Assembly (NCBI GenBank): GCA_025266875.1
Contig: JALLLT010000074.1
Span: 47,598-111,597, forward strand
Length of the DNA stretch: 64,000 nt
DNA from: Fennellomyces sp. T-0311
Taxonomy: Eukaryota > Mucoromycota > Mucoromycetes > Mucorales > Lichtheimiaceae
Reading direction: 5' to 3'
The notes beneath the pieces were generated by a model. That model did no database searches. It was not told where the DNA came from and saw only the letters and a list, made by a program, of their open reading frames with translations. A program made the position numbers and the translations under genes. Below are positions 11,566 through 64,000 of this stretch, piece by piece (position 1 is the first letter of the stretch; each line of letters begins with the position of its first letter).

Positions 11566-11767
11566 TCAGCGAGTGCTTTTTAAGAGAACCGTTTTTGACA
11601 CGAGGCAATATACTTCTATTGCCCTGAATTTAAGCTGTTTCCCCGCCACCAAAAAATTTAATTTCAATGCCAGAAAATTAGGTATATCGGACAAGAGGGG
11701 CCATGCACAATTGCATAAAACGCTGAGTTTTTTTTTCATGCAGAAAAAAGTTCCCTCTTTTTCCTGT

Positions 11768-13739
11768 ATGACACGAAACAAGAACACACCACCACCACGA
11801 CGGGTCACCACGCGTTCCCAATCGCAAAGTAAGGTTAATCTACCTTTTTTAATCACCTTTTTTAAAAGAACAGATTCTAATTGTTGAGCAGCACAAGAAG
11901 AAGAGCAGAGAAGCCAAAGTTCGCGTGCCCAACAAGGCAACCCCTTTCCTGTTTGACATTGTTCGAAGTGCACCATGAGCTAATCCATTGTACAGCCGTG
12001 TCAAATGTGCCGCCAATCGTCAACGCGGGTCAAGCTCGTACATCGGTGGCTGGTCAGTCATTCCCTTTGATCACACCATCACCAATATCTGGAACGAGCC
12101 AAGGCCACCTTGCTTCACCCATGCAGTCACGAGACCAGACACCCTTTATGCTCCAAGCCTCGCGTTTTGCTTCTGTCTCTACACCTGAACAAGGCGTCCA
12201 TGTACTCCCGCAATCACTTGCTCCTCAGCCTGTGCACTCTCCACAGCAGCAGCAATACATTCCAGAAAGGTAAGCAGCTGTTATATGCTACTTGCAAGTG
12301 CTAACTTACGTTACTTTTATCGTCTATTACATACTTGAAGTTCGATAGCAGGTGTAAGCGGTATGCTCCCGGCTTATCCACAGTACCAGTACGCAGGCCA
12401 TGTACAAAGGAGCCCGGCAACGCCTACGCAACAACAGCCATTGGAACAGCAGCAGTTTATCGAACAGCCGTCGTCCCAGCAGCAGTCTATCCAACAACAG
12501 CCATTGCGCCCGATACAAGAAGATCCTCTTCAGCAACAGAACCAAGAAACAGCTTTCGAAAGTCTTGTTTCAGAGCAGGCTCCTCAGCTTCAAGGATTAC
12601 AGCAGCCGTCTCATGAACAACTGGATCAACCACGGTAAAAAGTATGCGGATTTCAGATATTACTTACAATCTTTTTTTTATACTAGTGCTCTCGTTCAAC
12701 CTTTGCCATTGGAGTTCCGGCGAACCCACCCGTACCTGGTCCCTGAGTAAATCGAAAGATTTTATCGCAATGCTTTACTAATGCGGTACTTATGTATTAT
12801 ATCAGGAAACTTCTGACTTTGGCAGGCCTGGAGAACGGGGATGAGCGGTTTTGGAGGGCAGTTAGAAAAGAGGTGTTCCTACACGATGCCCTGCCCGAGT
12901 TCCGTGCGCAAGTGGCCGCTGTCAAAATTTTAAAGGAAATGCACAATGTGAACGACCCCTATAACGAGCACTTTCGTTACACAGCGACGGAAGACGTTGT
13001 CCGAAAGGTGTGTAGTGATGTCGTGTCTGTGTTTTAGCTTACCTTACAATGGTTTTCTATTTATTAGCTCACGACCATTGCTAGCAGCGAAAGAACCAAA
13101 TGTCAAACAGCTGCGTCAAGTTGGCTGACTGGCTATTATTTCCACTTTGGTCAGTACATTCCGCCAATCGATGACAGCATCGATCCGAGAGTGCACATGT
13201 ACGAACAATTGATGGAGAAGAGCCGGTGCGTATTTTGCTTTACTTTGGGGTTATTACATGTAACTTATCTCTGACATTCTAATATGCTAGGTTTGCTCGG
13301 CAGGGTTATCGACTGGACGGGCCATTGTTACAAAACAAGTGTATCGCCGACTGCATGTACACCATCTTTTGTCATCCAAACTCTAGTCGCCCTCGCCTCA
13401 ATAGTATCCCACGGCCTATCCCACGATCACTTATTGCATATACTTATAGCTTGGTAGGAACTTAGGATCCCCTTACGTATAGTGGTTAACTGATTAGCTC
13501 TGTAGATATATTATCGTTTGGGACTGGGATGCAAGCATGAAAAGACCAAGAAGCCAAAAGGAAAGTCGTTTTCGAAGGATTCAAACTGGGCAAAAGCGTA
13601 CCAACACATTCTGGATCCGGAATCTGTGTTTGGAAAAGCGATTGATTGGGAATCAGTGCAACAGTTTCTTGCAGAGACGCTTCCCGACGGCGATGGTCAT
13701 AGTGATACAGATGGCTTCGATCCTCATGAATATTTTTAA
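11768..13739 (+). CDS. Plavaka-1 second gene, unknown function, Gln-rich plus conserved C-terminal domain
   Basis: A divergent partner of the transposase. The likely start is the ATG at 11768 (MTRNKNTPPPRR). About eight exons follow: a Pro/Gln-rich low-complexity part (12000-12635, e.g. TPTQQQPLEQQQF), then FRRTHPYLVPE, FWRAVRKEVFLHDALPEF, SSWLTGYYFHFGQYIPP, RFARQGYRLDGPLLQNKC and GLGCKHEKTKKPKGKSF, ending with an acidic tail and TAA. The blocks RFAR.G....G.L..N.C and F..(K/D)S.W...Y...L..PES recur in the divergent gene of Plavaka-2 (45866-47637). I recognise no known domain. By position it resembles the accessory (TnpA-like) proteins of CACTA elements, an inference only. Confidence 0.75.
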
Positions 13740-14163: not shown

Positions 14164-14468
14164 GAAGCTCAACGTTCTGATGTCAGAAGTGGGAAGCGGC
14201 GGTAAGAATGGAAAGCTCTTATTTGCTGACGGACAGCATAGATAACAAAGAAGCTTGTTAGGGTGTGTTCATGTTGGATACAATATTGCCCCCCACCAGG
14301 TTGGAGCAACCGTCGGAATGAGCAGATGGAGTGATAGAGTGATGAAGTAAAGAATGAGAGTCGAATGAAATAAATGTGTGTGTGTGCACTTGTGATAAAT
14401 CGGGAAGTCTGAAAAACTCAGTTATAAAACCCAGTGGGAGAAAATTGTTGCTTTGAGAAAAGACAACC

Positions 14469-28054: not shown

Positions 28055-30691
28055 TGGTGCATACTGTTTTGAATAGTGAAGAATTTTCAAATCCCGATGA
28101 AAAACTTCCAGATGTATAAACGCAACGAGAAGTTGGTATTTTCTAAAACGGCGCACAATATCTATTTGTTATGCTATAAAGAACAATTATTGTGCGGGAA
28201 ATTGCATGAAAACAAAAACTGGAGAAGTTTAAAGGGTTCAAAGTTTTGTCGGAAAATGAAATTTAAGCAGAGGGGTCCTGGATTTCGAACAGGGCATCTT
28301 ATCCCGTAGGCGTACTTTAAGCTGTGTGTAACCATAATGACATTGTGTAACTATACTTCTCGATGCTGCGGTTGTGGCTGTCATTCTTCCCTTCTCTTTT
28401 CTTCTTTCAATATGCCACGAAGCAAGCGTTCCAAGGCAGCTCTTAAGAAGCTCCGTGATAAAGACGGAAACTACGTAAAAGCTCCAACATCAGTGGAAGT
28501 AACCAGTTCAATTGACATTGCTGACGATTTCGCGATCTTGGATGAACTTTCGGAAAGTGAGAGTGAAGAGCTATTGAAGGAGGCGTCATATCAGCCAAGC
28601 GCCCTTACCTGCCTTTCCGATACAACAGAGAAGACTTCCCGCGGAAAATACTGGGGTACTGGACGTACAACAAAATGGGACAAAAAGCGAAAGGCAGCAG
28701 AAATGGTCATAGGAAATATGTCAATTTCTAGTTTTTTCCTTCCTATCGCAACCCTCAACCTCACAGCAGCCGAAAATACGGTTACTGTGGAATCAGAGTC
28801 TCAGATGAACCCAGCTGATTTTGTTGATTCTGAAATCATTGATATGGTATTTCCATATGACAATGACATCGACGCAATGAAAGCCGCATACAAAGCCTTG
28901 GAGCCTATTGCTGATACCCACATGAATCAGACGCACCCAGCAAACAGTATGCCCGATTACGAACGATCTAAGTACAGAAGCGTCTACTGGTACTTCGGGT
29001 ATCGCATCGCAGGCATGCGGACAATGAAGGCATCGCAAGAGGCAGCAGCCAAGGCATGGACGAAACCTTCGAAATATTACCGCCCATTATCGATCCGACT
29101 TTGGGCAAAGGAATACCTACAGTTTCAAAAAATATTGGAACACCAAAAAGGGAAGCATGCGAAAAGAGCTTCTCTTTTGAACGATGAAGACATCCAACTT
29201 GCTGCCAAGGATTTGATCCTAAACACAAGGCAAACAAAGCGTACCTTGGGGGATATTGCCAAAGACCTAAACACAAAGGTTATACCTAACCTGATTGGAA
29301 TGCCAGGCAATATCTCTCCTTCAGTTCTTCGAAACCATATGATTTCTTGGGGATATCGATATGCAAAGTATAAGAAAGACGTTTACTTCGACGGCCATGA
29401 ACGCGCTGATGTTGTGGAATACCGCAAAGAATGGACAAAGCGCATGGTGGAGCGCAAGAAGTTGATGGAGGACTACGAAGGAGACGAAGAAGAGATAGTC
29501 AAGGCGCCGGTGATACCAAACGGTAAAAAGAAAATTGTGATAGTTACTCACGACGAGAGTACTTTCTACTCAAACGATGCGAAGGAAGACGTGTGGACGC
29601 ATGAGGACGAATCCACTATCCGTAAAAAGTCAATTGGTGGATCCATTATGGTTAGTGAATTCCAGTGTCCTTGCCATGGAACAATGAGATCGAGAGCCTG
29701 GACATCACGTACCTTCAAGGAAGCCAACAGCCGTAACGGTTATTGGAAAGCCACTGATCTGTATACCCAACTGGTGGATGATGCAATCCCATTATTTGAA
29801 CGGCTTCATGACGATTGCCAGGCGCTCTTTATCTTTGACCAGTCAAGCAACCATCGAGCGTATCCAGACGATGCTCTTTTGGTATCCCGAATGAACTTAG
29901 AAGATAAGGAAATTGTCAAGGATGCCCCAAGGCCCATGCGAAATGGCTGGATGATGTACAAAGGCAACGTCCTTTCACAGCCAATGTACTACAGCAAATT
30001 GGTGAGCGTTAGAACAAACAGAGGAGGAACAAGAGAGGTCGAGCATTTCTATGCTAAAGGCGTCCGTACTGTCCTAAAAGAACGCAATCTTGGGCGCTTT
30101 AAAGAGTTTGAGGACCAAGGCAAGACATGGAAGGCAAAATGCGGCGAAAAAGAGCCACAAGATGAAGAAGGAAACTGCTGTCCGTATCATATGCTGTCAC
30201 AGCAACCCGATTTCAATGGTCAAAAGACCATGCTTGAAGAAGTTGTGGTAGAGAAAGGTCACATTTTTGACCTGTACCCAAAATTTCACTGCGAAACCAA
30301 CTGGATTGAACGCTACTGGGGAGCCGCAAAACTAATCGCACGTAGAGAATGTGACTATTCGTTGCCTGCATTGCGGAAGAACCTCAATGGCTTCCTTGAT
30401 TCAATTTCGCCAGTGTATAACGATCCTGACGGCGAGGTTACCCCTACGAAGATCAGGCGCTTTTACAAGCGTTGCTGGAGATATATCCAGGCATACCATG
30501 ACATTGCTGATGGAAAAGAAGCATATGACTCAGTCAAAAAGTTTACTACACGTACATATGCCTCACATCGCAGACCAGGTGTTTGCGACTAACATAATAC
30601 AGTTGTCGGCACATTATTGATCCGCGGGGATTAAAAAATTTGAGGATTTCGAACAAAATAAAGTTTTTACGATTCAAAACAGTATGCATCA
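28055..30691. mobile_element. Tc1/mariner-like element 2, 2,637 bp, TA TSD, inside the CACTA element
   Basis: The ends TGGTGCATACTGTTTTGAAT and, inverted, TGATGCATACTGTTTTGAAT differ at one of 20 positions. TA flanks it at 28053-28054 and 30692-30693. The first bases (TGGTGCA) match element 1, and the encoded protein is homologous to its transposase. Confidence 0.9.
28412..30592 (+). CDS. DDE transposase of Tc1/mariner-like element 2, single exon
   Basis: 726 residues. I chose the ATG at 28412 (MPRSKRSKAAL) rather than the in-frame ATG at 28337 because it aligns with the start of element 1. Blocks in order: a basic/acidic N-terminus; WDKKRKAAEMVIGNMSISSF; the basic tract EHQKGKHAKRASLLND; GYRYAKYKKDVYFDGHERA; VTHDESTFYSNDAK (first Asp); GGSIMVSEF; LFIFDQSSNH (second Asp); NCCPYHMLSQQPDF; LYPKFHCETNWIERYWG (Glu). 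The second Asp and Glu are about 155 residues apart. The frame is open throughout and has no intron, unlike element 1. It looks intact. A TTCAATATGCC start context suits a eukaryotic gene. Confidence 0.92.
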   Translation: MPRSKRSKAALKKLRDKDGNYVKAPTSVEVTSSIDIADDFAILDELSESESEELLKEASYQPSALTCLSDTTEKTSRGKYWGTGRTTKWDKKRKAAEMVIGNMSISSFFLPIATLNLTAAENTVTVESESQMNPADFVDSEIIDMVFPYDNDIDAMKAAYKALEPIADTHMNQTHPANSMPDYERSKYRSVYWYFGYRIAGMRTMKASQEAAAKAWTKPSKYYRPLSIRLWAKEYLQFQKILEHQKGKHAKRASLLNDEDIQLAAKDLILNTRQTKRTLGDIAKDLNTKVIPNLIGMPGNISPSVLRNHMISWGYRYAKYKKDVYFDGHERADVVEYRKEWTKRMVERKKLMEDYEGDEEEIVKAPVIPNGKKKIVIVTHDESTFYSNDAKEDVWTHEDESTIRKKSIGGSIMVSEFQCPCHGTMRSRAWTSRTFKEANSRNGYWKATDLYTQLVDDAIPLFERLHDDCQALFIFDQSSNHRAYPDDALLVSRMNLEDKEIVKDAPRPMRNGWMMYKGNVLSQPMYYSKLVSVRTNRGGTREVEHFYAKGVRTVLKERNLGRFKEFEDQGKTWKAKCGEKEPQDEEGNCCPYHMLSQQPDFNGQKTMLEEVVVEKGHIFDLYPKFHCETNWIERYWGAAKLIARRECDYSLPALRKNLNGFLDSISPVYNDPDGEVTPTKIRRFYKRCWRYIQAYHDIADGKEAYDSVKKFTTRTYASHRRPGVCD

Positions 30692-31559: not shown

Positions 31560-34500
31560 ATGCCATCCTATCGTCCATGCCACTGTAGTGAATGCAAGGG
31601 TGCCAAAAATCAGTTACCGCGCACCATTGTGAATCACGTACTTCGAGATGAAGAGAGAGAGCTTAATATGCTGGTTGGCAATGGTATATAGCTATATACA
31701 CAGAAAGCACAACGGTGCTTCGATATCTTGCTCACTGAAGTTCTTCCCGTAGCTAACGAAGCTTCTGCTGTGAATGACAACAACACGTCTCTTACTGATA
31801 ATGAGGATAACAACTACCAAATGGACGTCGACGATGGTAGGCCATAAATTATGATTGATGTATGCTTGAAGTTGCTAAAGCAAATTAGATCAAGACCAGG
31901 CCGGATGGATTGCCGACGATTTCCACCACTTCCACGATGAACAACAACAGCAGCAGCAATCGATACCAGAAGTTCAGAAAACTCGCGATGCCGGAGGCTT
32001 CGCTGCTTTTGAGCAGGAGCATGTGCTGCAAACAGTTGAAGAAGCGGAAATGGAGATGTTTGAAGACGAGGATGACTTTCTTCCTGATGTGACTACAATT
32101 GAAGAAGCTGTTCCCGAAAGTATGCTCAGTCTTAATTTATTCCACGATACCCTTTCTGACATTTTTCTATATTAGACCATATGCCAATCCAAAATTTGCT
32201 CTACTTCATTGCCTACTTCGTTTCGCTTTTCCACTTGCTCTCACTCACTGACAAGGCTGCAACGACGCTGCTCTATTTCTTCAACATGATATTGCCACTG
32301 TTCAGCAGCGATGCTGGCATCACAGTTGCACCATCCACTGTGAAGAAAGTAATCGGCTTCGACCAGTACTCAAGTCAAGTCAAGCGCATTGTTGTATGTC
32401 CTGAATGCCATAAAACGTATGATATGGTTCGCGAAGAAATCCCGCTTACGTTTGACTATGTCCGCTATCCGAATCACCCTTGGGCAAGCCATCGCCAACC
32501 ATGTGGGCACTCTCTGTTCAAGGATGCACAGAAGCAGCGACCACGCAAGGAATATGCATACAATAGCCTCAAAGAGCATATCAAGCAGCTGTTTGCGCGC
32601 GAAGGCTTTGAGGAAAGCATTAACCTGTGGCGTAATCGCCAAGTGCTGCCGGAAACTTATTCTGACATATATGATGGAGATATGTGGCACGCAATTCGAG
32701 ACCCTGACGACGAGTTATACAGTTATGTCGAGGATCATCGCCGAGCACTCCTTCTTACATTGAATATTGATTGGTTTAACCCGTTCGAAGGGTCAATGTA
32801 TTCATGTGGTGCTATATATCTGACTATCAACAATCTTCCTCGTACGCAACGCTTCAAAAAAGAAAACGTCATTCTTGTCGGGATCATGCCTGAGCCAAAA
32901 GAACCATCCACATATGAGATCAATAATTATCTCAAGCCCCTCGTCGACGAATTGGAAGAATTGTACCGGAGAGGAGTCAACGCTCCTACTGACAACCCAG
33001 ACCTCGAAGATGATCATGTACAAGCAGCGCTGCTTAATGTCGCCTGCGATATACATGCCGCAAGAAAGGTATGTGGCTTTCTAGGCCATATGAGTCGTCG
33101 CGCTTGCAACAAGTGTGATCGAACATTTGAGATCGTCGATGGCAGCGTGCAGTATTCTGGTTTCACCACTGTTTACGACCAGCAAACTGCGGATCAAAAC
33201 CGTGCTGCTGCCGCCGAATGGCTTAAAGCAACCACAAAGTCAGGCCAGGAAGAGAAGGAGAAGCAGTTTGGTGTACGATGGTTGCAGCTGCACCGACTTT
33301 TGTACTTTGACGTAGTCAACTGTACAATCGTTGATCCAATGCATAACCTATTGTTCGGGACAACTGAGCATATGATGAAGACATGGATCGAGAATGGGGA
33401 CCTTACCAACGAGCATATGCAGAGCATCAAGACCAAAGCTGAATGCATCATCGTTCCGCCAAACTTTGACGTCTTAAAGACACAGAATATCTCGTCCTCT
33501 GGATTCTCGTTTATGAAGGCAGCGGACTGGAAAAGTTGGTGTTTGATTTATTCGCCATATCTACTCCATGGGTTACTCCACAAGGCCAAGTTTGACAACT
33601 GGATGAGCTTTGTCAATGCCTGCCGTTTGTTATTCAAGCCTTCGTTAACAAAAGCAGAGGTCGACAGCGCTCACACATTCCTGCTCGATTTCTGCACAGA
33701 GTTTGAGGCGCTTTACGGCGGCGATAAAGTTACTCCAAACATGCATATGCACATCCACCTCCACAAGACCATCGGTTCATTCGGTCCGGTATATGCATAT
33801 TGGCTTTTCGGATTCGAACGCTATAACGGGATGCTTGGGCGGATTCAAACCAACCGCAAAGATTCCTTCGAGGTGACGTTTATGAAACGGTTTATAGAGC
33901 TTACTTTGTCTACAAACTTCATCAACTCACCAAAGGCAAAAGCTCGCCTCAATGTCCAACAAAGAGAGTTTTTGACACTTATGGCCAACACCCCACCATC
34001 CTCCACCATTGCTGCTCGCTTAAACTCGGCTGATGCTTTCAATATCCACGAGTTTACCCTTAACTCAACCCAGTTACGCAACTCAACTGGCGCAGAAGTA
34101 CTTCCTCCGGGCAGTATTACAAGCAACTTCCAGTCCTGCAGTCTTGGACGCTCATTGCTTTATCATGCTCTTGTCGAATATTATAATGTGACATACCACG
34201 GCCGCACTAATCATGGTGTATGCGATCATCTAAATCCGAAACCTGGATGTGTGATCATCAACCCAGATATCGACAAGTTCATGTCACTGACCCTCCAAGG
34301 ATACCAGTATCAGTGCATTGAAGGAAGAGCCATTCGTGGATCTTATATCCAAGCAATCTTTCTCCAAAGCAACAGCAACCACACGACCGCATATCCTGGG
34401 CAGGTCCAATTCTACTTCAGGCACAAGCAGGTAATTGCTGGTCACGAGCAAGAGCATTACTTCGCCTACGTTCGTTGGTACCTTTCTCATCCTACTGGTC

Positions 34501-34679
34501 AAAATTTTGAGAGCGAAGACTTGTATGTATGGGATGAAGAGTTTGAAAGGATAAGCTTTCATTCCATACTTCCAGTTGCACGGATCTATTCGCCAGTTGC
34601 CATTGCAAAGTACAAAGCTACTGCACGTTCAAAACCGTGTATTCTTGTAATTCCAGTGCTGAAAAAAGTGCATGCATAA
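31560..34679 (+). CDS. CACTA Tnp2-type transposase
   Basis: Catalytic transposase of the CACTA element. Start ATG at 31560 (MPSYRPCHCSECKGA, a Cys cluster typical of the N-terminus of fungal Tnp2 proteins). Three short introns precede the long final exon (from about 32176). That exon contains CPECHKTYDMV, PCGHSLF, FNPFEGSMYSCGAIYLTINN (substrate-domain region), ILVGIMPEPKEPS, CDIHAARKVCGFLGHMS, CNKCDR, TIVDPMHNLLFGTTEHMM and MHMHIHLHKTIGSFGPVYAY followed by FERYNGMLG. These are the landmarks of the Tnp2 family. The final exon is open for over 830 codons and ends with TAA. It appears intact. Confidence 0.92.
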
Positions 34680-42510: not shown

Positions 42511-45303
42511 TCCTTGGACACCACACCACTGATACTCGCGACCAGCTGAGAGCGAAGCTCAATGAGTATTTGTGTGCTAAAGGATACAAAGGAGGCATTG
42601 TAATTGTGACACGTGTGGTGCTTAGAGATGGACGGAAAATGGATGGGAACAAAACCCGAAATAAGAAATAGGTAAAAAGAAAAGGGTAGAAGAAGAACGA
42701 TAGATGTAAGGTTACTGGTAAGTACCGAACAAATGTCGACAATAACAGGTTCGAGAAGTTACGGGTCGAATGCAGTGTCAACAGTTAATGAGAAAAGTAA
42801 TACGTCGAATTAGTAAGACTATCACCAAAGTCTATCCACACTAAACGACCGTATTCCCAAAAAAAAATCAGAGTAAGAGACGAAAAAACGACCTTGATTT
42901 ATTATTGGCCAACTGGCCTTTTTATACCTATTCTCAAATAGGCAACACGACGATCTACGCTATGACTAACTGAATGATAAACGAGAGTGAACGTGAGAGA
43001 ATGACGGGGAAGGAATTACGGACAGGGTTGAGAGGTTGAGAAGTTATAGTTAAGTAGGACATAGGGCAAGAAGTACATATATAGGAATCATGACATAATG
43101 AAGGAAGATAAAAGAATGACCGGAGGAGCGTGAATACGTGAGAAACAAAGACATAAGCATAAAGAAGTACCCAAAAAGGAAGTAACGTGGAAAGAACAGT
43201 ACGTGGATCGAAAGGTCAGCATAATTAATGAGGGAACGTGCGTAGAAGAAAATGGTAACATAAGGTTAAAGCGCGGAAAAGGGGAAAAAGGGATGGCAAA
43301 AAGAAAAAGAGACTGTGGGAAAAGAGTGACAAAATGCAAAGGCAGGGAAGAGCGGTTACACCAACGATGAGCAACCCTGCCTTCCCTGCTCACGTGACGG
43401 TGGATGAGGCCGGCAAATCCACCATATGTCGTGTCAATTGCATCAAGCGGAACCAAAAGCAATGGTACCCAATATTGCTACTTCAAGTGTAAGCAGGGTG
43501 GCGAGTACCAACCACACAGATCCAGCTTCAAGAACCACAGTGCCCCAGTTGTGGGCAATGGGGCAATTGACTCAAACTCGACTGGTGCCCATGATGTTGG
43601 ATGTATGACGCACTACAAGTGTACAAACGGTGTCATAAAGTCTAGACCTGAAACAAAAACTGTTCGCATTGATTGCCCATACCTTCTTTACATGGCGAAG
43701 GGGAAGGACTGTGCCAAGTGGACTTTCGTCATGAACTCGTCGAAGATCAATTTGCAGCATACCTGTTGTACTGAAGATGACCGCACTGACCCTCGCATTT
43801 TTTCTGAAGTCAGAAAGCAAGGAATTACTCGCGAGGATGCCATGGAGTTTGTGCAGCAATCATCTGTTGGGATTATGCCTACCCAAATGTTACGACTTAA
43901 GCGTGGCAACGATCCTACGGTGACGACGATCCCTCGGGACATCCGGAAGGTTCTGGAAATATCCAACATTCAAAAGGACTGTGACAACCAGTTCACGAGT
44001 ATTGATAGATCACTCAGAACTGGAAGATATGCCTATCGATATGAACTGACAGATGAAAGAGAGCTATGCCAGCTATTTGTCGCTCATAAAGATTCAATCG
44101 TCAAAGCTCAACGATTTCTGGAAGTCGTAATTATTGATGCGATCTACAAGACAAACATATCCAGCGTTCCACTTGTACAAATTGTTGGTGTCGACAATTT
44201 GGCGACTAACGATAGTACTGACTCCTTACGCAGTTTCCTTATCGGCTATGCACTTGTGAACAACGAACAAACGGATACCTACGCTTGGATGGTGAACTGC
44301 TTGAAAACTGTCATTTATGATGCAGCAAAAGAGCCATGTATGCCGGGACTATTTGTCACAGATAATGATCGATCACTTCGTTCTGCTCTCAAGCGCGTTT
44401 TTCCGTCAGTTCCTCGTTCTCTGTGTTCATGGCATGTGCAAATGAATTTCGAGAAAAAGCTACCAAATGGCATAGACGAAACCGCCAAGAACAGCTTTGT
44501 ATCTGCTGTGCGTGGAATGCTGTATGCGCGAAGCTTGGCTGGCTTTCAAACAGCGAAACACAAGTACTACGAGCGACCAAACAAATGCCAAGTGAAAACT
44601 ATTTGAATGGCTACCTTGGAAGGTATGTATCACGCAAAACTCTAAGAGCTCCTGAATTTATATTACATGTGTACTTACTTCTTCATAAAAACGTATCAAG
44701 TTTACTCAAGGATGATGAGGAAGAGTGGGCGGGCTATATTGCCAGAAATCGCTTTAACCTCAGTGTCAGATCGACCCAGCGCGTCGAAGGAACTCACGCC
44801 GTTGTTAAAGAGATTATACAAAAGCCCGGAAAGCTCTATACTATTATAGGCTATATTCATACCTTTTTGGAGAAGGTAAATACATACTTACTTTATACGT
44901 CCGAAGATTGGCTTAGTCTAAATACGCACATCAATAGAAACTGGCGAGAGACAAGGAAGAGTCCGAGGAACACTATAAAAAGCTCATCTATAAAAATGCA
45001 ATGAAAACGGCAATAGATAGCGAAGTGGCCAATATTCTAAAGCCCTTAGAGCATGCGATTGGCCACTTTGCTATCAGACGTATACGAAACGAGATCAGCA
45101 AAGCAAGGAAAGCAACAGTAGAAGATGAAGTCACTGGTGACGATAGCCCTTGCAACTGCGCGGCATGGATCAACTACCACCTACCTTGCTATCATCAAAT
45201 TTTACAGAACAGTAGCGACACTAAGATAATTATCGATCCAGCCACCATTGACAACTGCTGGTATTTGGATACAACATGTCAACGCGGTATGTTTAACTTG
45301 TAA
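42511..45303 (+). pseudogene. FAR1/MULE transposase 2, core (split by solo LTR, one frameshift)
   Basis: FAR1-like N-terminus: DQLRAKLNEYLCAKGYKG in 42511-42606, rejoining after the LTR at 43441 with ASSGTKSNGTQYCYFKCKQG. Then YKCTNGVIKS, DCPYLLYMAKG and NLQHTC, the zinc-binding positions. DDE core: VVIIDAIYKTN (Asp), VGVDNLATND, FVTDNDRSLRSA (Asp), LCSWHVQMNFEK. Near 44575 the frame shifts by one base, after which MPSENYLNGYL, RSTQRVEGTHAVVKE (Glu region) and the SWIM finger CNCAAWINYHLPCYH follow. It matches the MULE at 1-1312 block by block. No start codon identified upstream of 42511. Confidence 0.85.
42607..43436. repeat. Solo LTR, 830 bp, TSD ATTG, in MULE-2
   Basis: Ends TGACACGTGTGG and GTCGTGTCA (7-bp inverted TGACACG). 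ATTG lies at 42603-42606 and 43437-43440. Excision restores the MULE reading GGIVI-ASSGTKSNG. There is no significant coding sequence inside. A polyA-signal-like and T-rich stretch occurs around 42850-42930. Confidence 0.85.
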
Positions 45304-45540
45304 TTACTGCTCATAGTTACTGCAACAACTTCATCGCATTTCCAGAAAATACTTACTGAATATATTTAATTATAGAACCGTTTCATTATTTTATGATTGT
45401 CGTATCCTACACCTTCCCACAGAGAATGCCTTCTTGTTTCAGTCTCAGACACATCCATTCTATTCGTTCTTTCGACGGCACCAACCGTACGTCATCCATT
45501 GGTCCAGTTTCTGCCAACATCTGTCCAAAACTACTTTGAT
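45304..45540 (+). other. MULE-2 intron and probable short exon before Plavaka-2
   Basis: A GTATGT donor follows DTTCQR near 45288. Acceptors occur near 45374 and 45420. From the second, ENAFLFQSQTHPFYSFFRR is open up to the Plavaka-2 boundary. The exon is plausible but unproven. Confidence 0.35.
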
Positions 45541-45865
45541 CTACATCCCAAAAGTCGTTTTTCCATTCTGGCCCATTCATGAGTCTCAATGGCCTTTGAA
45601 GGCACCAATGGCTTGACTGGCTACCCCCCATCTCGCATGGCCTCCAATGGCCCTAAATGGTAAATTATACGAAATTTTATGGCCATTTAACACGAACGTT
45701 GTTTCTTGCTAGGTCATTAATGGCTGTTTATATCCATTGAGAACTCTTCTACATATACAAGTAATGGCTATTTTTTCGACTGGAAAACATATTTTGGTGT
45801 CTTTATATCACAGCATCCACTTTATTCAATGATAACAAACATTGTACGAAATATATAACTAGAAG

Positions 45866-47637
45866 CTACTCGTCATCCGTCATCTCACCTTCTGAATCCG
45901 TATGCACTGTCAAAAGATCCGCTAGGCAAAAGTTGCTTTCAGAGTTCGACTTCTCCAAGGAATCAACAACGTTTTGCTGAATTTCAAGTGCATTTTTCCA
46001 CTTAACCATTCGACTTTCTGGTCCGTTCAGCATTCCAAAATATGTGTTTCTCCACTCTGATTTCTCCGAGAACTCCTGGTTCACCTTTGTCGCGACCGTC
46101 TTGTGCCCAAATCCACTCGCCATTGTGAAACACATCTAGTTGTTGCGATATATTAGTATGTGCCGTATATCATGATGTTTAATAAGGTCGAACATACCAC
46201 AGTGTACGTAAGGATCAATACCGGGACCGTCACCACGTGTTGTTGATAATCCAATCGTTTTCTCGAAGACTGCTTGTTAAAAAAAAGCTGATGGATAAAA
46301 TGGCCAAGACATGGGTTCTCCATCAAAGCACCAGTATCATTGAAGCCCTCGCGCGCGAAACTGTATAGCATAATAATTTGAGCAGAGCGTATTAAAATTT
46401 AATCAAGAGGTTGCTGTAGCTTACCGGGACCCATTTAAAAGCCAATGGTATTGTACGCGGGAACGCTGTATTGTGACACCCCTTTTCCGAAGCGCCATGC
46501 CATCGAAGTCATAGTCACGTAGGTAATCTGCAGCAGATAGAACCAGGGCAGATCGGGAATCAGATACAGCTTTACGGAACTGTAAATTAAAATTAGAATC
46601 GTCTTTCGGGTGCCTCTGAATCATACACACCATTTTTCGCAACCGATGGTCCACACGATAGCGTAAATCTTCGTTGTATGGAAGACCAAGAGCTTCCAAT
46701 GCGGTTTGGACACAACCGTTGGTAACCTCATCATTGTTGGGAAACGTGGTTTCAAGATAACCAAAACGTCTTGCTTGCTTTCTGAACTCAGACTTGTCTT
46801 TCTCTTTTGTGATTCTCAAGTTTTCTCTACATATAGATGCATATTTTCAGTCATCGATCTTTTCTTATAAAAAACATACCGGTGGAAGTCCTTGACTACA
46901 ATCCCACGTAGCTGACGGTTGTCAAGACTACAGTAGTGAAAACAGCGATCAGTTGTTATTCACATACTGTTAACGAGACTTACTTTATATCTTCCTCTGA
47001 GTCTTCGCTTGATGCTTTCCCGTTCGAATCGTCTTCAGACTCACTGTTGCCCTCTTCTTCGGTATCGTCGTGAAGATACTGTTTAGCTCTAGTATCGTCA
47101 CGTTCGTCGCCACTATCCAGTTCGCCGCGCCCTTCAGAATCATCAGCATCATCAGAAGCCGATGCGAAATCGACATTCAAACTTTCGGTGCCCACAAGAA
47201 GAATTAATTAAAACGTTTGCGAATGACTTTAGTCGTAAGTAGATACTTACGCGGCATTGGGTTCATTTGTTGGTACTTCAGCCAATACTCTGGACACAGC
47301 TGTACCTTTCGCGTGGGTAACACTGGATGGGACTGGAGTTAGATTAGTGTTTGCTCTATATAAACAAGGATCGATTAATTTTAAAAAAATTACACATTCC
47401 GTTCAAGCAATGTATTACTTTTTTGTCACTTTTGGTGCTGGATCATGAAGAGACGGTGCAGGCCGCGTCTTTCGCTTGTTTTGAGATTTTTGGGAATTAA
47501 CGCTTTGTTCCTTGTTAAGTTCGTTTGATCGATCCTGAAGAACGGCTGCAGAAATACTTAACCCACAACATATATATTCGATCTTTACTGATCGTACCTG
47601 GTACTACTTTCCTTGTTGACTTATTTTTAATTCTCAT
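45866..47637 (-). CDS. Plavaka-2 second gene, homologue of the Plavaka-1 partner gene
   Basis: Start MRIKNKSTRKVVP at 47637. Exons then give DRSNELNKEQSVN, SVTHAKGTAVSRVLAEVP and an acidic Asp/Ser/Glu-rich part (DSEGRGELDSGDERDDT). The conserved domain follows: RKQARRFGYLETTFPNNDE, DLRYRVDHRLRKMVCMIQ and YHWLLNGSR, then FAREGFNDTGALMENPC, LILTYTVV, SEKSEWRNTYFGMLNGPES and the tail MTDDE, ending TAG. FAR-G-G-L-N-C and S-W-Y-L-PES match the Plavaka-1 gene, and the intron before FAR is at the same place. Function unknown. Low complexity in this copy is acidic rather than Gln-rich. Confidence 0.75.
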
Positions 47638-47733
47638 TGTTGAAAGCGGAAGAAGTGTTGTCCTGCTGCGGCTGCGGCTGCATTGTTTCAAGTAACACCA
47701 ACTCAGCCCCAAGTGGTCGCTCCACTTTGACAA

Positions 47734-50700
47734 ATGACAGCTACCTGTGAGCATAAGTCATGCCAGAAAACTTTCAAAACACCAAGTGCCCTCGAACGGC
47801 ATTACGATGCTGTGCATAGTACGGAGTCGCTGGCCGCAAAAGAAATAACTATACGACCAAACCGATCAGTGAAGCGCAAAGTATTCAAATCATGCGATCC
47901 CGACAGCGCTCGTAAAAAGCAAGCTGTTAATGATCCTCGTTCAACGCCACTTTACTCATTGAGCCCTCCCGAGAAATCTAATCAAGAGGAATCTCAAAGC
48001 TCGAGGCTATTCAAAAGTATAGTGTCACAAAACCACGCGAATCATTTCACTAACATATTTTTGTTTCAGTACCACTCGTTCCTGTGGAAGAAGATAGTGT
48101 CATTAAAAACAGCAAAGAAGACGGCAAGACTACGAGAAAAGAGGCTGAGTTACCGAAATATCCTGGATCGTTGAACGCTCTAGAGCAAATGCTGGCAGAG
48201 TTTGCTTTTGACACAGAGTTGTCGAATTCGGAATACGAGAGGTAACAGCTTTACGAACGTGAACTGGTAATACTTACGTATTAATATCTCTGTATAAAGT
48301 TTTGTGAAAATTGTACAGGCAGGAATGAGTATGACACACACAGCTAAAAAGACGATCGAAATCAAAACGACCACCTTGGATAAACTCAAAAGCACTTTAA
48401 AAAAAGATGCGGATCCTTGTTCACTAGTGGTAATTAATCAAAGAACTACATTACTTTTGGCATAAAATTCAATATTTAATGGTAAATGTCTAGGAGTTTA
48501 TAACCTGTCCTATCGATGTGCATGCCATCGACGATTTTCCCAAAGGACACGAAAAGGAGTTTACTGAAGGCATAGTAGAACCCCTGGAACTTGTTTACCG
48601 AGATATGCATGACCTCTGTGAGCATCTGTTCAGCCATCCGTCATTCTCTGAAGTTATGAACATTTATCCAAGTATTTACCGGCGTGATGACGATGTCAAT
48701 GGTCCACGAGTGTATGGCGATATTGACTCCGGTAATTGGTGGCAATCATTGCAGGTAAGGATCCAGAAATATATATAAAGCATCAGTTAACAATAATATA
48801 CATACAGGCGGAGCTGTCTGATGAGTATGTTTTACTACCTATCATGCTTGCCTCGGACCAGACCACAGTATCAGGAAATTTTCGTACGAAAGCCTGGCCA
48901 GTATACATGAAGTTAGGTAAGCACTGGACTAAAATCCAGTTGTATATCAAGTATTCTTATAGCGTAAACATATTGTAATGTAGGCAATATTCCAGTGGAA
49001 GCCCGGGATCAGCCTTGCTATAGAGCAAGTCGTCTGCTTGCTTACTTCCCCACAATAGATTGGAAAGCAACCACGAATGTCCCTTCATGGTTCACCACTG
49101 CGAAGTATGCAGTCATACACTACTGTTTATCTAAAATACTTGGTCGCTTTTGCAATACCGCAGATAAGTTAGTATTTCTGAATTGGAGAGTTAAACGTAT
49201 CTGAAATACTTATCATTATAGCATTTAGAGTACAAGCGTTTCGGATGAATGGTCCTGGCAATAAACAATATAAGTGTATCCCAGCACTTGCCTGTTACAT
49301 AGCAGACTTACCAGAACAGTATGTGACTTTTGTACCAAGATTATTGAAGATTAACATATATATATATGTATTTTTAGAAGGATGTTGGCACTCGTCAAAG
49401 GTGGTTCTTCAAATTTTTCGTGTCCTCGATGCAAAGTTGGCACGTGCAGTTTCCATTGTCAGTATGAGTTTTCGTTTGATCAAGGAAAATCCGTGGGCCG
49501 TACCAAAAAGTATATGAAAAAATTATATGAAAAAGGCAAGAGTCTTGGAAAGTCAGAATCTTTAAAACATGGACAAAGGCATTCATATCATCTTGTCGAG
49601 GTTAGTGAGCACAGAAATACTATGTGCTGACATACTCACGATATAAACCAGAACGCATTTTGGAAAGCTCCTTTATTTGATATATATCAGGCATTGACAG
49701 TTGATGATTTACATCAGATTGGCGGAATGTATTCGAACTTGTTAAGTCTTATTGAAAATATCTTGAAAGATCGTGGCGCCAATGATGTTATCAAGCAAAT
49801 TACAAAAAGGTCGGTATCTATAGCTCGAATACTGCATAAAAAATCTTATACTCTTTGACACTGTAGAGCATCGATATTGCCCCTTTTTCGTAAACTTCGT
49901 CCTTTTACAAGCGGATTCTTTCCCAGCGCGCTAAAAAACCCAACATACACCGAACTAAGAAGTCATATGGCGGTATGTGTAATATTGTGATTTTATAGGG
50001 ATAGACTGTAACTAATGCTTTGAGTTATCAGATTTTTATGGCATGCACTCATGATCTTTTACCGCCACAAATTGTACGGTGCATGCGTCATTTCATCGAC
50101 TTTGTCCAGCAGGCTTTGGCAAAAGAACACACAGAAGAAACACTGGCGGACATGCAGGAATCCTTACGATTATATAACAAGTATAGCGCAGTTTTCAGCT
50201 CCACAGTACTTTATATTTGTCGCTACAACGTTATATTCTTGGTTACTGATTTCTTACCGTTAGAACAAAATGATCTTTCCAAAAAATCATGCATTGTGGA
50301 AGTATATGTTTGATATCCGCCAAAAGGGATGTATAAACGGCTACAGCACCTTGCACTCAGAGAGCCAGCACAAATTTGACGCAAAACAGCCAGCAAAACG
50401 GACGAACTTTGTAAACAGCACATTCGCTATTCAGATGGCAAATTACGTCATGTATCGTGATTTATTGTTTGACACATATCAAGCTGCCTCCTCTGAAGAA
50501 ATTAAGAGTAAGATGAAAGGCAAGATCTCCAACTGTGGCAACATGAATACACCGGACACAGCACAAGACCCGGACCTCGTTCCATCATCCCCATTGATGA
50601 GCAACAATCCGACTAACTTTGACGAACTTTCAGAAAAGCATCCTTCGCTCAAAGAACTTTATAATCTTACACGTATATACCTCAGTACTCTTAAAGACGG

Positions 50701-51333
50701 TGAAAAACCGGTGAAACTCAAAAATATGCCAAAGCCAAAAAATAACAAGGTAATTACGTTTAGTGCATCAATTCCGTTTCAAATGGGAATTTTTTGTTTC
50801 TATTTTTATAGATATATGCTTATCAAACTCTCAAGATAAATGATACCGATGATCGTGGAACAAGTTATACGGAATTCATCAGAGCAAACCCATCATTTCA
50901 TCGACGAGCTCGGTACGACTTTGTACAGACCAAGGATGGGTATTTTGTACAAGTCTTGCTTTTTTTCAACATTGAAAGGACCTTCACGATGGAAAGTGAT
51001 GATCCATTTTGTGATGTTGTTGAAGAGCGGTTATGTCTTGTACGTGTATTCACCTACATTGAAGAGGTTCATGCGAGTGGATTGCAAGTTGTTAAATACC
51101 CAAACGACTCGGATATACGACAGCAAGGGTTATGTGTCATGTCAATCAAAAACATCGAACGTCTTGTACACGTCGTTCCTGATTTTTCTACTGCCTTGAA
51201 TCAAATCGAAGAAGAGGACGGAATTTATGATTGTTACTTGGTCAATCATGATATTGATCCAAATCATTGGTCGTACGGCGCAACTAAGAATTTCATTGAT
51301 ATCCCGGATCAAGAACTTGTAAAATGGTCTTAA
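47734..51333 (+). CDS. Plavaka-type transposase, multi-exon (Plavaka-2)
   Basis: ATG at 47734: MTATCEHKSCQKTFKTPSAL with a C2H2 zinc finger (CEHKSC...HYDAVH). Following exons: SLNALEQMLAEFAFDTEL; DPCSLV; DDFPKGHEKEF; GNWWQSLQ; MLASDQTTVSGNFRTKAWPV (probable first Asp in SDQT); GNIPVEARDQPC, RLLAYFP; GPGNKQYKCIPALACYIADL; NFSCPRCKVG; AFWKAPLFDIYQ, VDDLHQIGGMY; FTSGFFPSALKNPTYTEL; RCMRHFIDFVQQALAKEHTE; FPKNHALWKYMFDI. The C-terminal domain has YFVQVLLFF, VHVVPDF and YLVNHDIDPNHW, ending TAA. Exon order equals Plavaka-1. No internal stop noticed. Introns are 50-75 bp. Confidence 0.87.
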
Positions 51334-51662
51334 TAAAGCGTTAACTTGGCCGTATAATGTAAGATAAAAACGCTAGCTAAAGTTGGAATATGTACTCTTG
51401 ATAAACGGAGTGAATTAAAGATATCTGTTACTCTATAGTACGTGAATTGGTAAAATAGGCCTTAGATTCTACTATGTTTGCTTTCAGTGCCATTAAAGGC
51501 TATATATAAGTCGTCCTAATCTATTTCGTGTGTTAAATGGCCATGCAAGACCATTTAAGGTTTCACATTATCATTTTGGGCACTCAAAGGTTAAAATGGC
51601 CTTGAAAGGGTGATATGTTGCCATTTGATGTCCCAAATGGTTTTTACCATTTTGTGATGTAG
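51334..51662. repeat. Right subterminal region of Plavaka-2
   Basis: No gene. At least eight ATGGCC/GGCCATTT/AAATGG motifs lie between 51490 and 51660 and end in the terminal repeat TTTTGTGATGTAG. The left end (45580-45720) has the same motif set. Confidence 0.7.
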
Positions 51663-51667
51663 ATTAG

Positions 51668-52455: not shown

Positions 52456-54691
52456 CAGTGGAACCCCGCTTTTCACACAGGCGGCTTTCAGTGAAAAAAA
52501 GTGCAAAAAGCGGGGGTGTGCAAAAAGTGAGGTTGCTGCCTGACGGAAAATATAATACCCATTAGTTTTCGCCAACCAATAAGATACAGTAATTAGATAA
52601 CGGCGCTACAATAGAAGCTTGTGCATCTTGACGGAACTTGTTCATTTGTTTATCTTTTTTTCATTATCAAACATGCCACCCAAAGGCCAATCTAGAATTG
52701 ATCCAAAGCACAAAGAAGCCATTATCGATTGCTTTTTTGAGTTTGAAAAGGCAAACAGGAAGATCACTGTTCCAGACGTAATGAATTGGGCCATAAATGA
52801 AAAGAAGTTCGCGGACGTACCTGATAGAACCACTGTTGGTCGCTGGATAACGAAGAGAAAGAAGGAAGATGAAGCTGGCATTACTAGAAATGTCAAGCAG
52901 AGAGCACGAGCGAAATTTCCTGTATGTGGCAAAGTAAAGAAGGGGAAATCTCTGTCTTCATCGTTGACAAATAGCTATATAATATATATGTTGGAGCAAG
53001 CTCTTTATATGTGGATTGAACAAAGAGCTTTTGAGAGAACGCCAGTCAACTGGCATGTCATCAGAGCTGCTGGCAAAGACTTTGCTAAAAAGCTAGGCAT
53101 GTCCGAGTCCGAACTGAGGTTTACCAATGGCTGGCAAGACCGCTTCCGCACTCGATATGGGCTGAAGATGGTGAAACTGCATGAAGAAGGCAGTTCTGCT
53201 GATTTTGAACTTGCAGCAGCGAAGTTACCTGAAGTTCAGCAGAAGGTAAAAGAGTATGCAGCCAAGGACGTTTACAATATGGACGAGACTGCATTTTTTT
53301 ATGCCAGTGCTCCTACTACTACCATTGCTACTGCCGGCTTCAAAGGTGTCAAGCAGGACAAGTCCAGATTGACAATTGTCCTGACTGTTAATGCTGATAG
53401 GTCAGATAAGCGTGACCCTTGGTTCATTAGCAAAGCTAAAAGACCAAATTGTTTTTCAAGAGTAAGTAATCACTGCACTAGTATTGAACTCGGTACTTAT
53501 AAATGCGAAAGGCAAATAAGGATAAGGTCAATATTAGCGATTACTATGCCAATGTGAATGCCTGGATGACCCGTGATATATTTACCTTGTATTTGCGAAG
53601 ACTGGACAGAGCCATGAAGTATCAAAACCGCAAGATTCTTTTGCTCCTGAATAACTTCTCGTGACACTTTGCAAATTACGAGCCAACAAACGTTGAGCTG
53701 TTATACTTGCCACCCAATACAACTTCAATGATGCAGCCATTAGATGCTGGCATCATTAAGAGCTTTAAAGTGCACGCCAAGTATGTTGTCATTATCTGCC
53801 TAATATAATTTGACAGTAATTTAATTTATCTGCTATTAAATCAATAGGAATCTACAGTATGAACATGCATATGAAAAGATCAAGTTTCGCATGGAGAAAG
53901 GCCTTACTGCAAATGATGGAAACACATTTCGCGTTGACGTCCTTACAGGTCTTAAGTAGGCACATTGTGCTTGGAATAAGGTTACACGAACCACTATCAC
54001 CAACTGCTTTAGAAAAACAAAAGTGCTGGATGGGGAGGGTGAGGGTACTGATGTTGGATTAGATGCAGCAGAAGAAGTAGCACTAAATCAGATCCGTGAC
54101 CATTTGGATCACATTTATGGAGAAGATTCTACAGAAGCCATAGACTTTGACGCAAATCCACCTGAGGAAGCTAGTGCTTGTCATCAAGTGCTTTCCAATG
54201 ATGAAATTATCAGTACTCTCCTCGAGGAGGAGCTTGCAAGTGAATCTTCCGTAGAAGCAAGTGATGAATCACAGCAGCAGGATACTGTTGCTTCCCTCAT
54301 TCGAGAGTACACGTTTAAAGAAAAAGTCAGTATGATTGATAGTGCGCTTAGTGTTTTGAACGAACTAGAGCATCGAAAACTTAAAGATGACTTGCAGAAA
54401 GTGCGCGATGATTTTCGTAAGAAGAGTCAGGCAAGCCAATCGGTGCTGACCTCTTTTTTCAACCAATAAAAATAGTATACTTCTGCCACATGTTATAGAT
54501 GAAGCTACTTCATTCGAATCTCGCTATCAGCAGCCAGATATATGGAAATACAATATAAGCGGAAAATTGCACATCCCAATTTTGAAAGTGCAAAGTGCAA
54601 AAAGCAGGGTGTGCAATTTTCTTAAGTACTGAGCGAGTTTTTGCCCAAGCTTGATGCAAAAAGCGGGGGTGCAAAAAGCGGGGTTCCACTG
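52456..54691 (+). mobile_element. pogo-type element, 2,236 bp, TA TSD, inactive
   Basis: Ends CAGTGGAACCCCGCTTTT and, inverted, CAGTGGAACCCCGCTTTTT. TA lies at 52454-52455 and 54692-54693. Subterminal copies of AAAAAGCGGGGGTG(T) lie inside both ends. It carries a CENP-B/Tigger-like transposase. Confidence 0.95.
52673..54469 (+). pseudogene. pogo/Tigger-like transposase, dead (D-to-N and stops)
   Basis: Starts MPPKGQSRIDPKHKEAI. Helix-turn-helix regions: PDVMNWAINEKKFADVPDRT and a CENP-B-like FAKKLGMSESELRFTNGWQDR. DDE domain: VYNMDETAFFYA (first Asp). The second site reads LLLLNNFS-TGA-HFANYEP, where pogo proteins have Asp in LLLDN, so the catalytic Asp is Asn and a stop follows. The third site is MMQPLDAGIIKSFK. 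A TAG interrupts VLTGLK and AHCAWNKV. The C-terminal acidic and helical tail continues to TAA at 54469. Two introns are likely (near 53463 and 53785). Confidence 0.88.
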
Positions 54692-61408: not shown

Positions 61409-64000
61409 CTAGGCGTCATCATCTTCCGTGCCTACTTGCTTGGGATTATCGTACTCCTTATTCCAGTGAACAAACTCTTTGCTTCTTTCATTGATATGTG
61501 GAAGTCGGCCTCTGCTGTTGCACCAGGAAAACCGATCCGAATCATGATTCAGTAAATACTTTCCATACATTGATCCCAGGACAGGATCAACGAAAGCATC
61601 TGAATCATAATCCGGAACGACATGGATTGTACGCTTTACCCGTTCGATTTGGCTTATAAACAGGCCTTTATACGTATCGTCAAGGTCAGGTGAAATAACC
61701 TCTAACCCAGTCTTGTGTGTTTCGCCCAAAGGACAGTATCGGCGTGCCAGTACCAGATCGTATTCTCTACCCCTGTACTTCGCCCGGAAGACCATGAGGA
61801 CTTGGCCATACGACTCGTATATCTCTTTGTCGCTCCTGTCCTTGATGTTGGGGAACTCAAATACCGCGAAATCTTTCCTTTCACGGCCATGGAACTGATC
61901 ATGTGTTCTGACCTTGTCGATAATAACCTTGCCATTGGTGTCGCAGTCCTCTACTATCAAGGTTTGATACACCTTGATCGTATCGTCGTCGAGCTGTGGT
62001 AAGTTGCGTAGTGCAACACGTGCGAAGTTGTTATCGATAGTGGTGTGGAAGAAGGAGTGAAGGATTATGGACAATCCATGGAAAGTGCCTTGCTGTGATA
62101 ATACGGATACTTCTTTGGGATCTGTTTCTGATGCGAGCTTATATGACAGTTGGCTTCGTCTGGAAATGATCTTGGAAATTGTCGCTTTTGCGCGAAGCGA
62201 TGTTGTAAGAGTACTTGATTGGTTTATGGCAACGTCAAAAAGTAGGTCCTTCTTTTAAATAAAGTTGGCCATTTGGGACAGCGAATCAAACCGACCGTTA
62301 GTTCGTTTTTCCGGCTTCTTTACATCGATAGTGTGTTGATGCTCGGAGCTGGTTGTGCTATAGCCTCTGATTATACCCCGAGATCGGATATCGTGGGCAT
62401 ACTTTTGAAGCATGTGATTTTTGGGGAAGTTCAAACCAGATGGAGAGTACTTTTGGAATATTGGACTGTACTTATAGTATGCATCCAATGACTCCTCCAT
62501 TTCAGTAAGACTATCCTCGGTATGTTCCTCGGCGGTGGCGTGCATTATGAAATCCAAGAAATGACGCAAGCAAAGTGCTGCTTGTAGCGGAATATAATCG
62601 TAACAGCAAGGTAAGATGATAGCCATATTGCTTCGCCATTCTGTATAAGTTGGATTTCGCAAAAAGCATGGAAAAATGCCTTGGTTGAACCGACGATGAT
62701 CTTTGTACTGAGGTATCATGGATGCTCGATTGTTAATTTCTTCAATGATGGAAGCTCCTTTGGTACCATTCAGATCCATGATCAGTTTGTCGAGACAGTT
62801 GAGCAAGTGTTCGTATACACCGCCAAGCTGGTGCAAGTCATCCACAAGTAGTGAATCATGGAGATCAAAGAATGGTTGAGGAAGTTTCCAACATGCGTTC
62901 TATCATATATAGTAGGGGGTTTCAGAGTTGAAAATATAGTTGCATATGCAAAAAATTTACATAAACTATTCATTTCCCGATGGCCAATAAGATTTTATGT
63001 CATTTTTTCAACTCTGAAACCCCCATGCATAAACTTGCTATAAACTTGACAAAAAAAAACACTGTTTACAAAATGATTACACAAACTAGCGTAGTTACAA
63101 GATGATTACACAAACTTCGTTTTCTTCTTCGGAAACAGTTTATTGTGTAGAAGGCATGGGCAGCTTATTTACACATTCTTTTAATAACTCACGTTTCAAG
63201 TGAAGCAATGATAGAAGGATATGTGATGACTGTATGAAGCAAGCACACAAATTTTTTGTCATTTATATAGCTGTGTAAAAAGTTATCACATCTTATTTTC
63301 AAAGCCTTTCTTACTCTCACTTGTTCGTGGATTCTGTTAGCTGCAACGCGATAACAATCCTGAGTCACTTGCTTATATCCTATGTGAGGGCTCATCAATG
63401 CAATGTCAGTTCAACATATCACGAGTCATGTCTTCTTCATTAGCCCAGATTTTTTCATCAGCATGATCTACTTTGCTCTCTATGATCCTGTTGGCTTGAT
63501 GACCACACTGACCCTGAGTCACCTCTGACTTCCACCTGTGATATCCTATCACCGCTTGTATTATATTGGATGAGTCATTCTCAGTTTGTTCACTCGGTAG
63601 TACGAAATGTCTGCTTGTGATACCATCGACTTTATGTCAACTTTTGCATATGCAAAAAAATTTTTATGTCATTTTCCAGGTGACATAAAAAAATTTTGCA
63701 TATGCATAAACTTTCAGCCAATCAGATTTTATGTCAAAAAGTTTATGCTTTGCATATGCAACCACATTTTCAACTCTGAAACCCCCTAGTATAATGCCAT
63801 GTTTAGCAAAAAAGTAAAATATCTACATTATTGATTGATAGTACCTGGATGTTATGCATTGAAATCTCCATGAATATTTCCTCATCTTCTTCATCTTCTT
63901 CATCTTCTTCTTTTTCTCCTTCGGTGCCGTGCAAAAGACCGTTTCCAAGTTTGTACAAATGTTCCATCTTGGATGACGTTCGTAGTTCCGCTGTACCGTT
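61409..64000 (-). pseudogene. Plavaka-type transposase 3, partial, one TAA
   Basis: The C-terminal two-thirds of a Plavaka transposase; the 5' end is outside. Exon 63845-64000: LYKLGNGLLHGTEGEK, EDEEIFMEISMHNIQ. Intron 62900-63844 (contains the 872-bp TIR element). Main exon 62899-61409: NACWKLPQPFF, VDDLHQLGGVYEHLLNC, FLRNPTYTEWRSNM, RHFLDFIMHATAEEHTEDSL, FPKNHMLQKYAHDI, then QMANFI-TAA-KKDLLFDVA. The conserved C-terminal domain follows (YGQVLMVFRAKY, HKTGLEVI, IHVVPDYDS, YLLNHDSDRFSW), with stop TAG. It lacks several introns present in copies 1 and 2. Confidence 0.85.
62915..63786. mobile_element. 872-bp nonautonomous TIR element, TSD TAGTA
   Basis: Ends GGGGGTTTCAGAGTTGAAAA on both sides (inverted), continuing to about 36 bp with two mismatches through TTGCATATGCAAA. 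TAGTA lies at 62910-62914 and 63787-63791. An extra inverted end (TTTTTCAACTCTGAAACCCC) at about 63007-63027 makes the first ~113 bp a mini-element by itself. There is no coding capacity. It sits wholly inside an intron of the Plavaka-3 transposase. Confidence 0.9.

Follow-up and report, generated by a model that had tools for sequence, protein, structure and literature searches.

A two-gene Plavaka transposon of Fennellomyces sp. T-0311 with a DUF6532 partner gene that may serve as a second transposition factor

Introduction

A 64,000-nucleotide stretch of the genome of Fennellomyces sp. T-0311, a fungus of the Mucorales (contig JALLLT010000074.1, positions 47,598 to 111,597 of the forward strand; hereafter the window), contains Plavaka-2, a cut-and-paste DNA transposon that belongs to the Plavaka group, carries two genes and has moved recently. 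The transposase is encoded by one of these genes, while the other, located on the opposite strand and hereafter termed the partner gene, encodes a protein that by profile comparison is a member of an existing Pfam family, DUF6532 (domain of unknown function 6532; PF20149). The data suggest that this second protein helps Plavaka-2 to move. The best overall explanation, of about even probability, is a mobile two-gene Plavaka element with a TNPA-like DUF6532 partner, for which we infer the TNPA-like step.

Structure and mobility of Plavaka-2

The boundaries of Plavaka-2 were set by the match to a second, 100% identical copy (locus L029 on contig C121), which spans window positions 45544 to 51660 and places the element at 45544-51659 (6116 bp), give or take one chance base. 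The first-pass annotation of this DNA had proposed a span of 45541-51662, which agrees with these boundaries to within 3 bp. In an inverted-repeat search, window positions 45539-45553 paired with 51650-51664; combined with the copy boundary, this delimits the terminal inverted repeats CATCCCAAAA on the left (45544-45553, plus strand) and TTTTGTGATG on the right (51650-51659, minus strand). Comparison with the flanks of the C121 copy further identified the target site duplication, which reads TA on either side of the window element (45542-45543 and 51660-51661); the C121 copy is flanked by TG on each side. Identical copies at two sites, each with its own 2-bp duplication, indicate that Plavaka-2 moved recently.

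Both genes of the element are arranged head to head. The partner gene occupies 45866-47637 on the minus strand, as the first-pass annotation had noted, and comprises nine exons (47637-47598, 47545-47419, 47355-47251, 47181-46984, 46927-46880, 46826-46631, 46579-46425, 46360-46198 and 46135-45866), whose splicing yields a DUF6532 protein of 433 amino acids that is letter for letter identical to the public protein P0001. The first partner model had eight exons, and the P0001 model removes one extra intron. The multi-exon transposase gene (PF18759) extends from 47734 to 51333 on the plus strand, its end being taken from the list of open reading frames and its exon junctions placed by eye; the joined exons score 161 bits against PF18759, above the curated cut-off of 26.3. 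Between the presumed start codons at 47637 (partner) and 47734 (transposase, probable start) lie 96 bp (47638-47733) which presumably constitute a shared bidirectional promoter. In addition, the N-terminus of the transposase features a C2H2 zinc-finger-like motif (47746-47817, plus strand), whose zf-C2H2 score of 19.2 bits falls short of the 25.2-bit cut-off. Among the searched loci, a loosened pattern also detected this motif in Plavaka-1, the second such element of the window, and in locus L033, and otherwise only in copies of these elements.

The partner protein as a member of DUF6532

Assignment of the partner to DUF6532 is based on PF20149 scores exceeding the cut-off of 24 bits for P0001 (41.1), the eight-exon Plavaka-2 model (32.5), the core of the Plavaka-1 partner (29.8) and the homologue P0002 (39.3). 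At E<=1, the family matched 11 of 15 partner cores from diverse families (set A1). Among seven homologues, two lie above the cut-off, P0003, P0005 and P0006 reach 18-23 bits, and P0004 and P0007 lack a match; these low and missing scores indicate that the partner branch lies far from the Pfam seed. A genome search with the PF20149 model itself accordingly returned only four places, one of them above the cut-off, and later searches employed the partner proteins themselves, since the exons are short and far removed from the seed. Six columns (P, R, F, W, Y and W) are invariant across the 15 partner cores. Pfam scans of these cores matched no En/Spm family, and scans of the cores together with the seven homologues yielded neither a Myb/SANT domain at E<=1 nor an enzyme family with a convincing score.

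The counterpart in Plavaka-1 is a DUF6532 gene at 11768-13736 on the plus strand (PF20149), whose 5' exons and start are unsettled and whose core exons (12687-12746, 12806-13007, 13068-13225, 13291-13453 and 13506-13736) were placed by eye. It is accompanied by a minus-strand transposase gene (7767-11566, start codon by eye) that resembles the transposase of Plavaka-2 and matches PF18759 in the genome search; the right end of the element lies at 14164. The two window partners are homologous, as had been proposed, since their single BLASTP comparison gave an E value of 2e-20 at 26% identity (50/192) and both independently score above the PF20149 cut-off. Chance resemblance, which the first-pass annotation had named as a refuting outcome, is ruled out by the same E value. 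Of the shared sequence blocks quoted there, FARQGYRLDGPLLQNKC / FAREGFNDTGALMENPC and SNWAKAYQHILDPES / SEWRNTYFGMLNGPES are present in the two proteins, whereas the TYT block reads TYS in Plavaka-1. The claim of a common intron point also held, as an intron before FAR occurs in both window partners. Moreover, the profile matches of most families break at about positions 74/75, 123/124 and 178, as expected of shared introns, a pattern that derives from the matches and not from a study of splice sites. A third, partial Plavaka transposase is located at 61409-62914 on the minus strand of the window; its partner would fall past the edge of the window, at which contig C155 (111597 bases) also stops.

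Pairing of partner and transposase across the genome

In the Fennellomyces sp. T-0311 genome, Plavaka elements commonly take the form of the two-gene unit, a conclusion that is close to certain. Among 20 loci fetched around transposases, 16 carry a partner upstream on the opposite strand according to the partner profile. In a seventeenth, L028, which a foreign frame interrupts, the partner sits just beyond the fetched stretch (C99:327087-328012, opposite strand). The profile did not find a partner in the fetched stretches of L024, L014 and L022; the 5' sides of L024 and L014 hold long frames of other kinds, and parts of the 5' flank of L022 match flanks of other loci. The loci L018 and L019 overlap physically, each being centred on a different element.

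Merged genome matches comprise 84 partner genes and 81 transposase elements, numbers that constitute lower bounds since the genome search scores only the best candidates. A divergent transposase lies within 10 kb of 57 of the 84 partner genes (within 3.6 kb for 54), compared to about 0.9% expected by chance, while three have a transposase in another orientation and 24 have none within that distance. Conversely, 57 of the 81 transposases have a divergent partner match; among the other 24, seven have scores resembling those of the L012 family, of which all three fetched copies possess a partner by profile, and the remaining 17 were examined only where fetched. The places for this count were compiled by hand with omission of overlapping or adjoining ones; the count excludes the separate 3' exon C156:80607-80804 and treats the transposase pieces at C149:40513-41594 as belonging to a listed element. 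C120:92282, counted among the 24 partner genes lacking a transposase, has a divergent one at 10.7 kb, and several others are located near contig ends. Partner genes without a transposase match within 10 kb, such as C96:118443, C96:126047, C105:538052, C2:170884 and C117:1078001, may be stranded or possibly domesticated.

In several families, both genes are enclosed by inverted repeats with 2-bp duplications (L012, AC; L025, AT; L026, GT; L010, AT; L027, AA). The pairs of L016 and L017 also reside inside ends with TA duplications each, in a search which itself required equal flanks, and L011 and L023 have no clean 2-bp duplication. The position inside ends and duplications rules out that the partner is a host gene beside the element. 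The co-occurrence of transposase and partner, which the first-pass annotation had proposed as a test, is common genome-wide, and co-occurrence within element ends applies to Plavaka-2 and several further families. L012 (contig C2), L025 and L026 (both C95), the three fetched of the seven like-scoring copies, are 99.97-100% identical over 6.28 kb; this near-identity, together with a separate 2-bp duplication for each copy, points to another very recently active family.

Co-evolution and selection

Judged from their sequences, the partner and the transposase evolve together. Across 14 families, the distances of the two proteins correlate with a Mantel r of 0.84, a value reached by none of 20,000 permutations. 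Five groups are well supported in both trees, namely W2 (Plavaka-2) with L032, L016 with L017, L009 with L013, L020 with L019b, and L015 with W2, L032, L016 and L017, while the deeper nodes have weak support and the position of L012 differs between the trees. Stitched partner cores may hold a few intron-edge residues, and the transposase pieces of L032 and L019b are partial. Identity is lower in the partner than in the transposase for all 91 family pairs (means 0.276 vs 0.433).

Such correlated distances would also fit direct contact between the two proteins, as envisaged if the partner were a helper like ORF1 of PIF/Harbinger, which would act by binding the transposase and delivering it to the nucleus or the element ends without recognising the subterminal repeats. 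Harbinger likewise needs both of its two independent genes, with the ORF1 protein binding to the ends and positioning the transposase (PMC2836001). Of five partners measured, all have an acidic C-terminal part and two a strongly basic N-terminal part. This lack of uniformity in the basic parts and the absence of a Myb/SANT domain from the Pfam scans, however, speak against an ORF1-like helper, which is regarded as improbable.

The partner is further, by substitution analysis, under purifying selection. The ratio of nonsynonymous to synonymous substitution rates (dN/dS) amounts to 0.082 for the partners of L013/L027, the most informative family (23 synonymous and 8 other changes, p 4e-10), to 0.074 for L023/L027 (p about 4e-10; non-independent of the former because L027 is shared), to 0.31 for L032/L033 (p 0.026) and to 0.47, not significant, for L010/L011 (p 0.12). 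Corresponding transposase values are 0.13 for L023/L027 and 0.34 for L010/L011 (p 0.10). In pairs farther apart, synonymous sites are saturated or close to it. Selection on both genes had been postulated from the sequence of the window; the partner ratios, the genome-wide pairing and the supported groups common to both trees are in favour of it, and ratios near 1, named beforehand as a refuting outcome, did not occur in the partner (0.074-0.47, with the L010/L011 value not significant).

These data also bear on whether the partner might be cargo or a captured host gene that is carried by chance. The 24 of 84 partner genes devoid of a transposase match within 10 kb would be in line with such an origin, which is nonetheless strongly disfavoured and highly improbable, given that divergent layout and intron positions are kept across families with partner identities of about 20-60%, that the same supported groups appear in both trees, and that selection is purifying.

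A mosaic structure was observed in L013, L023 and L027. L013 and L027 are 99.9% identical in the transposase part and 97.7% in the partner part, while the partner coding sequence of L013 is almost the same as that of L023 and the transposases of these two differ. This mosaic suggests recombination between element halves.

Subterminal repeats and the proposed role of the partner

The first-pass annotation had stated that the two window elements differ in their subterminal repeats. In Plavaka-2, 10 occurrences of AATGGC fall within the terminal 600 bp and two in the interior, and none of 300 shuffles contained a 6-mer that frequent. Repeats with the core ATGGC or GCCAT are located at 45589, 45608, 45637, 45647, 45679, 45682, 45720 and 45764 on the left (45589-45768) and at 51489, 51537, 51540, 51596 and 51620 on the right (51489-51624). 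Plavaka-1 instead features CCTATA (7 terminal vs 4 interior), an enrichment that is not significant (shuffle p 0.07), so that the stated difference stands with this reservation for Plavaka-1. Other families are enriched in AAAGGC (L012, 7 vs 3), TTCAAA (L010, 8 vs 4) and CAACCC (L027, 13 vs 0). The enriched 6-mers differ among families and exceed shuffles in four of five (p below 0.01), Plavaka-1 being the exception.

The outermost ends vary as well. CATCCCAAA is found at the two ends of L017, and W2 (Plavaka-2) and L016 each have it at one end, their other ends reading CATCACAAA and CATCTCAAA; the three elements W2, L016 and L017 likewise cluster in both trees. The ends of L010, L012 and L027 carry CATCGG or CATCAGAG, the latter at the start of L012, and the left end of Plavaka-1 has no clear CATC.

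The combination of family-specific subterminal repeats with a partner that is less conserved than the transposase constitutes a TNPA-like pattern. In plant En/Spm elements, transposases are similar, fast-diverging proteins match diverging subterminal repeats, and both proteins are required (PMC2613891). By analogy, the partner may be a second transposition factor working like TNPA, a reading that is tentatively favoured at somewhat less than even confidence. The catalytic transposase and the opposite-strand DUF6532 protein would both be expressed from the 96-bp shared promoter region. The DUF6532 partner would then bind to the family-specific short repeats beside the element ends, would help to bring these ends together for the transposase, and might additionally tune expression from the shared promoter.

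Fast divergence of the partner would also fit an anti-silencing or regulatory factor acting outside the transposition complex, which would keep copies expressed while the transposase alone moves the element. Such a function is the interpretation given to the TET/JBP genes of some Plavaka families (PMC12730594), and the finger-like motif that some transposases possess themselves would be compatible with it. On the other hand, the partner is present in most of the loci examined (16 of 20, plus L028), whereas TET genes occur in Plavaka families of two species (PMC12730594), and Pfam scans revealed no convincing enzyme family in the partner. An anti-silencing role is thus considered rather unlikely, and the TNPA-like role of the partner is retained as the working explanation.

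Other elements in the window

Mobile elements are abundant in the 64-kb window. A MULE transposase domain (68.1 bits) lies at 43398-44606 on the plus strand, followed by further frames that reach 45303, some 240 bp short of the left end of Plavaka-2, and a Tc5-type helix-turn-helix protein (48 bits; 52601-53557, plus strand) begins at 52601. An 839-amino-acid frame at 32160-34679 on the plus strand matches Transposase_21 (tnp2, 58.9 bits) and represents a separate CACTA-type element. A 760-amino-acid open frame at 28310-30592 on the plus strand has no Pfam match at E<=0.01; broken minus-strand frames at 15320-17421 resemble it by eye, in unaligned form.

Relation to described transposons

Plavaka-2 is closest in description to the PlavakaB lineage of PMC12730594, with which it shares the transposase family (PF18759), ends of the CATC..GATG type and 2-bp duplications. 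PlavakaB is characterized by target duplications of 2-3 bp, and 2-bp duplications were seen in Plavaka-2 and several other families. Compared to the PlavakaB ends CATCA..TGATG, the right end of Plavaka-2 matches in TGATG, whereas its left end, CATCCC, shares only CATC with CATCA; other families of this genome mostly carry CATCGG. Furthermore, the Plavaka families described in that paper are derived from Agaricomycotina, whereas the host of Plavaka-2 belongs to the Mucorales.

With En/Spm (CACTA; TNPD plus TNPA), Plavaka-2 has in common similar transposases, a fast-evolving second protein and family-specific subterminal repeats (PMC2613891). It differs in that its two proteins are encoded by separate divergent genes instead of alternatively spliced transcripts, that its ends are not CACTA, and that its duplications comprise 2 bp instead of 3 bp. 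Two independent genes per element are also found in PIF/Harbinger (a Myb-like ORF1 plus a transposase; PMC2836001); there, however, duplications are 3 bp, while the elements described here have a Plavaka transposase and Pfam scans of their partners found no Myb/SANT domain.

In the mushroom Marasmius oreades, about half of all DNA transposons are Plavaka or KDZ elements, which were called understudied in that context (PMC8290104). DUF6532 is listed among other domains, next to Plavaka and KDZ, in PMC8955403, and a full-text literature search for DUF6532 or PF20149 found the domain named only in this list. A term search of the main text of PMC12730594 returned no mention of a DUF6532 gene, and the Plavaka passages of PMC12730594, PMC8955403, PMC8290104, PMC9674265, PMC11075540 and PMC6396904 contain no second Plavaka protein besides TET/JBP. 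Within the full-text literature searched, the new aspects are the two-gene form of a known Plavaka group and the placement of a domain of unknown function.

Conclusions

As far as Fennellomyces sp. T-0311 is concerned, these findings make Plavaka a transposon group with two genes instead of one, and they provide DUF6532 with a context and a role that can be tested. Plavaka-2, with two full-length copies that are identical, permits a direct excision test, and a second required protein, if real, would explain a possible failure of the transposase alone in assays. It may further be, with a probability somewhat below that of the TNPA-like role itself, that DUF6532 is the general second gene of fungal Plavaka elements, those of mushrooms included, and thus a large family, so far unrecognised, of TNPA-like proteins that bind the ends. 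If so, fungal DUF6532 genes now regarded as hypothetical would for the most part belong to transposons, and the ones lacking a nearby transposase (24 of 84 in this genome) would include stranded or domesticated copies. Gene counts that take DUF6532 proteins as host genes would then need correction. Moreover, the finding bears on the question why distant transposon groups retain a separate end-binding protein.
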